Shown here: positions 17,325 through 21,027 of the stretch, in pieces
Position numbering within the stretch: position 1 is the first letter of the stretch
Layout of the letters: each line of letters opens with the position of its first letter
Origin: Thermoanaerobaculia bacterium
GTDB lineage: Bacteria; Acidobacteriota; Thermoanaerobaculia; Multivoradales; JAHEKO01
Assembly: GCA_945787635.1 (NCBI GenBank)
Contig: CALZIK010000025.1
Coordinates: 1-60,167 of the forward strand
Direction: 5' to 3'
DNA length: 60,167 nucleotides
Notes under the pieces: generated by a model
The model's input: only the letters and a program-made list of their open reading frames with translations
Database searches by the model: none
Told to the model about the DNA's origin: nothing
Translations under genes and position numbers: made by a program

Positions 17325-18143
17325 ATGAATTCGCCCTTCGCAGCTGTACGAGCCCTGCTACCGGTTCTGGCGCTGACGCCCTGCGGGCTGGTCGTGGCGG
17401 CGACGTTCCCGAGCGACGCCGACGCCGAGCACTTCCTGCGCACGGCGGAGGTCATCGAGATCAAGGCGCTCGGAAAGGGCGTCACGCTCTCCCACCTGGT
17501 GACCCTGTCCGACGGGGACACGACCTCCAAGGCGGTCTGGAAGGTCATCAATGAGTACCAGCCGATCAAGCGATTCGACGACGGCGGCTTTCCCGAGCTC
17601 GGGTTTCGCGACAGCTACAAGAGCGAGATCGCAGCCTACCGGCTCGACCTTCTCATCGGCCTGGGCCAGGTTCCGCCCACCGTCGAGCGAAAGCTCCGCG
17701 GCGAGCGCGGCTCGCTGCAGCTCTGGATCGAGGACTGTAGGACCGAGGGAGAGCGCCGCCGAGAAGGAACCCAGCCTCCCGATGTCGCGGACTGGAATGG
17801 TCAGATGCGCCGCGCGAAGGTCTTCTTTCAGCTCATTCACGACGTCGACTACGTCAATCTGAGCAACCTGCTCGTGGATTCGAGCTTCAACCTCTACAAG
17901 ATCGACAGCTCGCGCGCCTTCCGCACGCAGACCGACCTGCTCGACCCCGACAAGCCGGAGAGATACTCGCGTTCACTGCTCGAGAGGCTTCGCAGCCTCG
18001 ACGAGGCCACGTTGAAGCGCGAGCTTGGCAAGTGGCTGAGCCAGAAGCAGCGCTCGAGTCTGCTCGAGCGGCGCGACCGGATCCTCGAGCGAGCCGAGCG
18101 CTTGACGGCGGCCCAGGGAGAGGCCGAGATCCTGTACCCGTAG
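17325..18143 (+). CDS. Secreted protein with kinase-like (HipA/PI-kinase/FAM20-type) fold
   Basis: The 272 residues from MNSPFAAVR have a signal peptide (hydrophobic 8-25, cleavage near VVAATF). The mature part has a candidate ATP-binding Lys (SKAVWKVI), a possible helix C Glu in the segment FRDSYKSEIAAYRLDLLIG, and a catalytic-like segment VDYVNLSNLLVD...YKIDSSRAF that parallels the D-x-x-N-x-x-N and metal-binding IDxxRAF of HipA/phosphatidylinositol-kinase-like proteins. It ends in an Arg/Glu-rich helix pair. The start at 17325 is chosen because GAGGTGAT precedes it; ATGs at 17304 and 17319 are in frame. Substrate unknown, and activity outside the cytoplasm would be surprising for an ATP-dependent enzyme. 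Confidence 0.6.
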   Translation: MNSPFAAVRALLPVLALTPCGLVVAATFPSDADAEHFLRTAEVIEIKALGKGVTLSHLVTLSDGDTTSKAVWKVINEYQPIKRFDDGGFPELGFRDSYKSEIAAYRLDLLIGLGQVPPTVERKLRGERGSLQLWIEDCRTEGERRREGTQPPDVADWNGQMRRAKVFFQLIHDVDYVNLSNLLVDSSFNLYKIDSSRAFRTQTDLLDPDKPERYSRSLLERLRSLDEATLKRELGKWLSQKQRSSLLERRDRILERAERLTAAQGEAEILYP

Positions 18144-18221
18144 TCGGCGACCGAGGCGCGGTCCCGTGAGCGCCCGATCGAGCGTGGTTCTCGGATAGGA
18201 GGCCTGGCCATCGTCGAGGAT

Positions 18222-18896
18222 TCAGAACGCGTCGGACTCGGGGTCCCAGAAAGGCCCTTCGAGGCCGATCTCGGCGAAGATCCGGCGCATTTCGGCCGGC
18301 TTCGGTCGATGCGCTTCGGGGCTCAACCGGTCGCCGTACCAGGCCAGAGCGAGACGCCACTGCTGCTCGAGAGTCACTACCGGGCGCTTGGGCAGGCCGC
18401 GCTCCAGGCACCAGGCTTCGACGTTTTCTTCCGACCGGAAGAAGAGCATGGTGCTTCATGTGTAGACGATGTCATCCCACCAGAGCGCGGCCGGCACCGC
18501 GTAATGCACAACGCACTCGTCTCCGAGGACCCTGCCGCCCCGAACCAGCAGTTGGAGCGGCTCGAGAGTCTGTTCGCACCGCGAGCGGATCTCGCCGTCC
18601 GAGTGGAGTGCCGCCGGGATGGCCAGGGCGTCCCAGGCGCAGTTGGCGAAATATTGCTTGCCAGCCACTTGCACGCGGTGCTGGGTCTCGACGCCCGAAA
18701 ACGGCGGCGCCATCCGGATGGTCTCCCCGTCCCCCTCGAGCACCAGAACCCGATTCGCGAACAGTCTCTGGTAGCCCTCACGAATCTCGTGCGAATCGCG
18801 GCCGGTGGCGGACGCCATCTCCTCCGCCGAGGGTGGCCGCGTGGTCTCGGCGGTGTGCCGGTAGATCGCCAGCTTGAGATCGGTATCCTGATCCAT
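18222..18896 (-). CDS. MerB-like (alkylmercury lyase fold) selenoprotein with in-frame TGA
   Basis: Two same-frame segments, 146 and 77 residues, are separated only by a TGA (18456-18458). Joined with selenocysteine they give a 224-residue protein of the size of the MerB-like family. The first part has an N-terminal winged-helix-like region and QYFANCAWDALAIPA, where Cys86 and Asp89 match MerB Cys96 and Asp99. The segment VYT-U147-STMLFFRS aligns with MerB CCHVHFFAS, which puts the TGA exactly on catalytic Cys159. A 7-bp hairpin with loop GGTC starts 12 bases after the TGA, as expected for a bacterial SECIS. The family cleaves carbon-mercury bonds in MerB; the substrate here is unknown. A nonsense mutation is the alternative explanation. 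Confidence 0.8.
18426..18443 (-). promoter_or_regulatory. Candidate bacterial SECIS hairpin
   Basis: In the mRNA, TTCTTCC and GGAAGAA form a perfect 7-bp stem around the loop GGTC. The stem begins 12 bases and the loop 19 bases after the in-frame TGA at 18456-18458. Bacterial SECIS elements sit immediately 3' of UGA with the apical loop about 16-37 bases away and a G in the first two loop positions; the well-studied E. coli fdhF loop also contains GGUC. Confidence 0.7.
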
Positions 18897-19034
18897 GGAG
18901 CGTCGGTGAATCCGCGGCCGATACTAGCGCAGCGCGGAGCAGGATCCTGAGTCGGCCGTTCTGACGAAGATTTTCTGACCGGAGCGCCAACCTTTGCTTG
19001 GAACGCCTGTATTTACTGACAGAAGGACAGAATC

Positions 19035-19850
19035 ATGCGTGATCGACGAGAACAGCTGATTTGGACCGAGCTCGATGGCGAGCTGAGCGAGGCCGAGGTC
19101 CGGGAGCTTGCTGAGCTTCGAGCGCCCGGCAAAGGCTCGGCGGAAGCCGACGAGCTCGAGGCCGAAATCCGTAGCCTGGCCGCCAGGCTCGACGAAGTCG
19201 AGTCGGTGGCCGCGCCTGCCGAGCTTCGGGGGAGTATTCTCGAAGCCGTCACTCGGCGCGGCGTCCAGGGCGGAGAGCAAAGCGGCGGACAAGCCTCGAT
19301 ACCCAGCCTGGGCCATTTTCCGGCCCGGATCCGGGCCGCGCCCGCCTGGACCAAATGGGCGGCCGTGGCGGCGGGGCTCTCGCTGGCGGTCGTCGCCCAT
19401 CAGATCGTCTTCGGACCCGGCCCCGAAGACACCGCCGGTTTGAGCGGAACGGTCCTGCCGGCGCCCTCGCCCGAAGACGGCTCGATCGCCCTGCCGAGCC
19501 CCACGGAGCTCGCCACGAGTATGGATTTTGTGCGACTCACCTCGCAGGGAAGCCGACTGACCGCCTCGTTTACACCCGGCGAGGGTGCCTTCACCTTCGC
19601 CTTTCGCGCGCCGGGTCTCGAGGTCGAGCACCTCGAATTTCAGGATGGCGCAACCGGCAGCCACGACCTCGATACCGATCAGCTCACCCTCCGGGTCCGA
19701 GGCCCGGGCCGGGCCGAGCTGGTCCTCGTTCTGGGCCACGCTGAACAGCCTTTTACATTCTCCGGCTTCGGCGACGGTATCCAGCCGTTCGAACGCGAGC
19801 TCTCTCTCGTAGCAGGGCACGCAGCCAACTTTCAAGGAGCCGATCGGTAG
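19035..19850 (+). CDS. Single-pass membrane protein, anti-sigma-like topology, unknown function
   Basis: The 271-residue protein has a cytoplasmic N-terminal region of about 110 residues (Glu/Leu/Ala-rich helices beginning EQLIWTELDGELSEAEVREL), one membrane segment (about 115-133) and a 130-residue outer region rich in beta strands. The N-terminal pattern of a short acidic DGELS helix before a single membrane span resembles anti-sigma factors, but there is no zinc-finger HxxxCxxC. AGAAGGACAG precedes the ATG. It sits 58 bp upstream of the nonapeptide-repeat gene, so the two are probably one operon and may act together. Family not recognised. Confidence 0.65.
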   Translation: MRDRREQLIWTELDGELSEAEVRELAELRAPGKGSAEADELEAEIRSLAARLDEVESVAAPAELRGSILEAVTRRGVQGGEQSGGQASIPSLGHFPARIRAAPAWTKWAAVAAGLSLAVVAHQIVFGPGPEDTAGLSGTVLPAPSPEDGSIALPSPTELATSMDFVRLTSQGSRLTASFTPGEGAFTFAFRAPGLEVEHLEFQDGATGSHDLDTDQLTLRVRGPGRAELVLVLGHAEQPFTFSGFGDGIQPFERELSLVAGHAANFQGADR

Positions 19851-19908
19851 TCAGATCATGTCGCCGGCAAAACAGCGACGCAGCACCAACCCTTTGGGAG
19901 GAGCCAAC

Positions 19909-21027
19909 ATGAGCAGCGAAAGCAAGAACAGCAAGTTTCTGTGGATCGCGATCGGAGCCGCAGTGCTCGCGGGCGCGATCTATTTTTCCGGTGTCATGCC
20001 ATCGGAGACAGACGTGTCCGGCACCATCAGCGGCGTCGAGCCGGCCCAGAAGTATCAGGAGGCGCCCGACGTTACCGCCGAGCTCGATGGCGAAGAGGCG
20101 CAGAGCTTCCTCAACAGCCACGAGTTCCAGGCGCTGGTCGAGAGCCAGGAGATGCGCGAAGCGCTGGCCAGGGACGAGCTCAGAAGCCTCTTCGCCAGGG
20201 ATGAGTTCAGGAATCTCTTCGCTCGCGACGAGTTTCGGAACCTCTTCGCTCGCGACGAGTTCCGCGATCTCTTCGCCCGCGACGAGTTCAGGAACCTCTT
20301 CGCCCGCGACGAGTTTAGGAACTTGTTCGCCCGCGACGAGTTCAGGAACTTGTTCGCTCGCGACGAGTTCCGTGATCTCTTCGCCAGAGACGAGTTCAGG
20401 AACCTCTTCGCCCGCGACGAGTTCCGTGATCTCTTTGCCCGCGACGAGTTCCGAACGTTCCTCTCGAGAGACGAGTTCCGCGATCTTCTCGCTCGGGATG
20501 AGTTCCGCGATCTCTTCGCCAGAGACGAGTTGCGCGATCTCTTTGCCCGTGACGAGTTCCGGGACCTCTTTTCGCGCGACGAGTTCCGCGACCTGATCGC
20601 CCGCGATGAGTTTAGAAACCTGATGGCACGTGACGAGTTCAGGAACTTGATGGCACGTGACGAGTTTCGCAATCTCTTCGCTCGGGACGAGTTCAGAGAT
20701 CTTTTCGCTCGCGACGAGTTCCGGAGTCTCTTCGCCCGAGACGAGTTTCGAAACCTAATGGCACGTGACGAGTTCAGAAGTCTCTTCGCTCGTGACGAGT
20801 TCCGCAGCCTCTTCGCCCGCGACGAGTTCCGGGACCTCTTTTCCCGCGACGAGTTTCGCAACCTTTTCGCCCGCGACGAGTTCCGCGACCTCTTCGCCCG
20901 GGACGAGTTCCGGAATCTCTTCGCCCGCGACGAGTTCCGGAACCTTCTCGCCCGCGACGAGTTCCGGGACCTTTTCGCGCGAAACGAGTTCCACTCGATG
21001 ATGCGGGACGAGCTGCGTGCGAGGTAG
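19909..21027 (+). CDS. Membrane-anchored nonapeptide (RDEFRNLFA) repeat protein
   Basis: The start at 19909 is supported by GGGAGGAG. The 372-residue protein has one membrane segment (about 10-28), a 55-residue linker, and then about 31 tandem nine-residue units from residue 88 to the end. Consensus is R-D-E-F-R-[ND]-L-F-A; positions 6 and 8 vary (N/D/S, F/M/I/L). Two degenerate units (HEFQALVES, QEMREALA) precede the perfect array. The DNA units of 27 bp differ mainly at third positions, which suggests selection on the protein sequence. Eighteen residues equal five alpha-helical turns, so alternate units would show opposite faces of a helix. I do not recognise the family. The topology predicts the repeat region outside the inner membrane. 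Confidence 0.85.
   Translation: MSSESKNSKFLWIAIGAAVLAGAIYFSGVMPSETDVSGTISGVEPAQKYQEAPDVTAELDGEEAQSFLNSHEFQALVESQEMREALARDELRSLFARDEFRNLFARDEFRNLFARDEFRDLFARDEFRNLFARDEFRNLFARDEFRNLFARDEFRDLFARDEFRNLFARDEFRDLFARDEFRTFLSRDEFRDLLARDEFRDLFARDELRDLFARDEFRDLFSRDEFRDLIARDEFRNLMARDEFRNLMARDEFRNLFARDEFRDLFARDEFRSLFARDEFRNLMARDEFRSLFARDEFRSLFARDEFRDLFSRDEFRNLFARDEFRDLFARDEFRNLFARDEFRNLLARDEFRDLFARNEFHSMMRDELRAR
20170..21024 (+). repeat. 27-bp coding tandem repeat array, about 31 units
   Basis: The array encodes the RDEFRNLFA units of the gene at 19909-21027. Individual units keep the GACGAGTT core of the Asp-Glu-Phe codons but differ in codon choice at Arg, Leu, Phe and Ala. Because 27 is a multiple of three, several other frames also stay open, including a 387-codon reverse frame that is not a gene. 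Confidence 0.9.

Follow-up and report, generated by a model that had tools for sequence, protein, structure and literature searches.

The window, that is, the whole stretch of 60,167 nucleotides analysed here, carries on its minus strand a MerB-like reading frame (18896-18222) composed of 146 codons, an in-frame TGA (18458-18456), 77 codons and a terminal stop TGA (18224-18222). With selenocysteine (Sec) at the internal TGA, the coding sequence (18222..18896, minus strand) is predicted to encode a selenoprotein of 224 residues with Sec147, and homologues align to it over residues 1-224. The first-pass annotation had described the two halves of one protein as lying in the same frame and being parted by the TGA alone, which was confirmed by translation. 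Standard gene finding cuts the gene into fragments of 146 and 75 residues, the split that had been foreseen. The Pfam MerB profile (PF03243) matches the protein across the TGA, with residues 66-188 aligned to profile positions 1-126 (E-value of 2.7e-31; 108.6 bits against a cut-off of 27).

Three residues, Cys96, Asp99 and Cys159, are required in MerB (PMC8261052, PMC4525700). When aligned to solved MerB chains, the protein has residue 147 (codon 18456..18458, minus strand) in the Cys159 column, Cys86 (18639..18641, minus strand) in the Cys96 column and Asp89 (18630..18632, minus strand) in the Asp99 column, the same assignments that had been made from the sequence of the stretch alone. Of the MerB catalytic set, Cys96 and Asp99 are therefore kept and Cys159 is replaced by the predicted Sec. 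Cys86 is invariant in alignments A1 and A2, and MerB Cys117 is also retained, as Cys106. The motif at the Sec site is Thr-Sec-Ser (YTU-STM).

An AlphaFold model of the protein, built from 38 homologues, was obtained with a pLDDT of 96.9 and a pTM of 0.93. Its best match among solved structures is MerB2 (5c17; Z 19.4, rmsd 3.0 over 187 residues), and MerB (3f2f) matches with a Z of 15.8. The N-terminal domain of the model is similar to winged-helix regulators, LexA and MntR among them, as in MerB.

Elsewhere in the window, a 389-residue protein is encoded on the plus strand (19858-21027) and consists largely of about 30 copies of the 9-residue unit DEFRNLFAR; the corresponding repeat array (20173-20992) is a 27-bp tandem repeat encoding these units.

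Codons at the TGA column among homologues

Named relatives place the window's genome in the class Thermoanaerobaculia of the Acidobacteriota. The class was sampled with 149 genomes, 26 of which contain the MerB-like gene. The Cys159 column is occupied by TGA in 22 of these 26, the window's own genome among them, and by a Cys codon (TGC or TGT) in the other 4. In public genome contigs, 231 relatives were confirmed, and among the best 80 of these the column is TGA in all 78 scorable loci; the remaining two (L099 and L124) have frame shifts near the Sec column and were left unscored. These public loci are partly the same records as the class genomes. In all, the TGA is conserved at the Cys159 column in about 100 homologues, far above chance, and the frame is open to either side of it. 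In the public scan, going by record titles, the Sec form was found in Acidobacteriota, Planctomycetota, Verrucomicrobiota, Chloroflexota, Gemmatimonadota, Actinomycetota, Calditrichota, KSB1 and others. Since 78 of the best scorable relatives all have TGA, the Sec form seems to predominate in the lineage rather than to be an oddity.

The Cys96 and Asp99 positions are retained in every scored Sec member of the public loci. Where a residue other than Sec occupies the column, it is nearly always Cys. Cys or TGA, which the first-pass annotation had asked to be looked for in this column, was found in homologues. One Acidobacteriota homologue (L148, G300:C12), with a Trp codon (TGG) in the Sec column and Ser in that of Cys96, is probably a member whose site has been lost. 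A Cys-type sister group (L046, L048, L049 and L145), a single starred clade in the tree, lacks the SECIS and has Cys in the Asp99 column as well (CxWC). None of the viral contigs searched encodes a relative, and plasmids gave only distant matches, with identities of at most 30% among the ten matches listed.

The two fragments returned by standard gene finding are what would be expected if the TGA were a true stop, in a pseudogene, an assembly error or a pair of split genes. However, the same TGA recurs in about 100 assemblies with both flanks in frame, Phe, Trp and other residues C-terminal to the TGA column are invariant in the homologue alignment, and the hairpin that follows is under selection. 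A pseudogene or a sequencing error is thus ruled out by conservation, the latter because the same TGA is kept across about 100 genomes, and the probability left to a true stop of any kind is practically nil.

The hairpin 3' of the TGA and the selenocysteine machinery

A 7-bp hairpin with a GGTC loop had been noted 19 bases 3' of the TGA. It is present on the minus strand (18426..18443; TTCTTCC-GGTC-GGAAGAA), and the 19 nt are the distance to the loop (18433-18436), the stem starting 12 nt from the TGA. The hairpin overlaps the codons for Phe-Phe-Arg-Ser-Glu-Glu. The window has 1347 TGA trinucleotides when both strands are counted, and the Sec TGA is the only one followed by a GGTC-loop 7-bp hairpin 15-30 nt downstream. 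Rfam matched no family in 18000-19200.

Codon choice within the hairpin is strongly constrained. The Arg codon is CGG in 74 of 78 genes, against a background of 29% elsewhere in the same genes; Ser is TCG in 73 of 73 and Glu is GAA in 66 of 77, each against 35% elsewhere in the same genes. In a set of 90 distinct sequences, pairing is kept in 94% of stem cells. Two-sided stem changes number 35, compared with 12 +/- 5 after shuffling and 2 to 9 with the partner shifted along, counts of a kind that is inflated by kinship. Several of the compensatory changes nevertheless look independent in the alignment: the stem variants CTG..CAG or CGG occur in Terriglobia and in one Deltaproteobacteria MAG, and the Anaerolineae variant TTTC..GAAA (TTTCGGTCGAAA) changes Glu to Lys in the protein and retains the base pair. 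In the two Anaerolineae loci concerned (L115 and L120), the Glu-to-Lys replacement was observed in step with a C-to-T change that preserves the SECIS pair, a sign that RNA structure overrides protein there. The hairpin also survives a 6-nt deletion in homologue L045, and it was not found in the four Cys members of the class. As read from this codon constraint, the compensatory changes and the absence from Cys members, the hairpin is a SECIS element under selection, which bears out the earlier assignment.

In the formate dehydrogenase type of SECIS, as in E. coli fdhF, the stem-loop lies within the coding sequence directly after the UGA and has a small loop with G and U. The window hairpin is alike in its position and in its small G- and U-containing loop, but differs in having the loop GGUC and a 7-bp stem made from Phe-Phe-Arg-Ser-Glu-Glu codons that is near invariant across phyla. 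A guanosine in a small apical loop belongs to the bacterial SECIS consensus (PMC1088965).

The machinery for Sec insertion was sought in the window's genome, which is 97.7% complete, and the set was found to be complete, with tRNA-Sec (selC), selA, selB and selD all present. The selD gene of this genome (G000:C151:2790-3722, L018) itself contains one in-frame TGA and probably encodes a selenocysteine-containing SelD, and contig C195 has another SelD-like match. At the level of the class, selA occurs in all TGA-bearing genomes, and because it is present in 140 of the 149 genomes, its co-occurrence with the Sec gene is uninformative as a test.

An in-frame UGA alone leaves the inserted residue unspecified, and the codon might accordingly be read as another residue, either because genetic code 4 or 25 applies or through generic read-through. 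Against this, the MerB-like gene itself ends in a TGA, which is followed by no comparable GGTC hairpin, the alternative residue at the Sec column is nearly always Cys, SelA, SelB, SelC and SelD are all encoded, and the arrangement recurs in many phyla. A change of genetic code is rejected because TGA also terminates this gene and the Sec machinery is present, and recoding to anything other than Sec is extremely improbable. Sec at the MerB Cys159 position, the central proposal of the first-pass annotation, is supported by the TGA or Cys at this column, the SECIS element and the Sec machinery, and none of the three conditions that had been named as refuting it holds. The window gene is predicted, with a probability of roughly 0.93, to encode a selenoprotein with the MerB fold, a figure that does not extend to the lyase chemistry. 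Insertion of Sec in the cell is very likely.

Relation to MerB, SaoL and a second MerB-like family

The window protein shares with MerB and MerB2 (PF03243, NF009710, NF033555; 3f2f, 5c17) the fold and the Cys96, Asp99 and Cys117 positions, and the Cys159 column would hold a catalytic chalcogen in both. Unlike MerB, it has the predicted Sec in place of Cys159 and Ser at the Cys160 position, it lies outside any mer operon, and it scores below the cut-offs of both curated MerB models (68.1 of 193 bits for NF009710 and 56 of 200 bits for NF033555).

A MerB-like selenoprotein is listed in two reviews, in the earlier one under pfam03243 (PMC9312934) and in that of 2026 as SaoL, the SAO system's MerB-like organometallic lyase (NF040728), with the motif CU (PMC13188914). 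Two older papers cited for such a protein leave MerB unmentioned in the main text. As SaoL is already published, the presence of Sec in a MerB relative is not in itself a new claim. The SaoL model, at 159 positions, stops close to the Cys159 column (residues 74-144 of E. coli MerB correspond to model positions 74-145); from this length, the Sec of SaoL probably occupies this column or one next to it. That the window gene is SaoL itself could be argued from this shared site and from NF040728 being its third-best NCBIfam match. However, the match reaches 46.7 bits, about a third of the cut-off of 140, the Cys adjacent to Sec in SaoL is absent here, where Thr precedes Sec, and homologues of the window gene have no conserved neighbours. 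Identity with SaoL is very unlikely; the two are alike in being MerB-related selenoproteins. Compared with SaoL, the hosts of the window family are Acidobacteriota, Planctomycetota, Chloroflexota, Gemmatimonadota and others. As far as the open-licence literature was searched, the window family is distinct from SaoL and wider, and the family, its spread and its SECIS are new.

The same genome encodes a second MerB-like gene (G000:C81:12534-13277, minus strand; L002:1453-2196), in which TGA occupies both the Cys96 and the Cys159 columns and Asp99 is kept. The TGA pair recurs in other genomes of the class, found by protein search, and in further Acidobacteriota, in about 15 genomes beyond its own (L153, L155, L156, L163-L173 and L177). 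When 16 two-TGA sequences were lined up at both sites, a conserved hairpin was found after each TGA (first TGA, CGCCCTT-CGTGC-AAGGGCG; second TGA, TTCTTCT-GGTC-AGAAGA). In a profile comparison with the window family, the three catalytic columns align (probability 99.1), and the predicted structure matches MerB2 (5c17; Z 22.1). On the tree, the two-TGA sequences form one clade apart from the window's family. No NCBIfam model scores above its cut-off for this family, and no conserved neighbours were found. The two-TGA family is probably a double selenoprotein MerB, and it is the more surprising of the two families. That the class runs two selenium MerBs, the window's with Sec in place of Cys159 and the other with Sec for both Cys96 and Cys159 and a SECIS for each of these two, is put at even odds.

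Predicted chemistry and implications

In the proposed mechanism, SelB with Sec-tRNA(Sec) would bind the hairpin just 3' of the UGA, and Sec would be inserted at residue 147. The predicted metal site would then consist of Cys86, Asp89 and Sec147, standing for Cys96, Asp99 and Cys159 of MerB. At neutral pH a selenolate is ionised, and its hold on mercury is tighter than that of a thiolate. An organometal, such as methylmercury or a similar R-Hg compound, or possibly one of another soft metal or metalloid, may be bound via the thiol and the selenolate, and the metal-carbon bond would be broken by protonolysis with assistance from Asp, as in MerB. By analogy with MerB, organometal lyase chemistry is mildly favoured for the window protein.

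A MerB-fold selenoprotein that is no organometal lyase, acting instead as a metal sensor, a chaperone or a Cys86/Sec147 redox protein, is a credible but less probable reading. Neither a mer operon nor conserved neighbours were found among homologues of the window gene, and the window's genome has no MerA above the cut-off (best match 378 of 454 bits). The scores far below the MerB cut-offs point the same way, as does the N-terminal resemblance to LexA and MntR, which MerB likewise has. On the other side, the three MerB catalytic positions are retained in every Sec member, and Cys117 is retained as Cys106. Other genomes are known to carry MerB but lack MerA (PMC8261052). Given the lack of mer neighbours and of MerA above the cut-off, the substrate of a selenium-dependent lyase could differ from organomercury.

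MerB censuses and automatic annotation are based on complete reading frames and on Cys159, and genes with the UGA are therefore cut in two and missed. The occurrence of the same arrangement in about 100 genomes suggests a widespread selenium enzyme overlooked by gene finders. The Sec form allows sulfur and selenium to be compared in one fold and at one site. Through it, possible organomercury breakdown by bacteria of soils and sediments is tied to the supply of selenium. The two-TGA family, if active, would act as an organometal lyase whose metal site is a bis-selenolate, and the breakdown of organomercury or other organometals in soil would then have a large, hitherto uncounted selenium-dependent branch.
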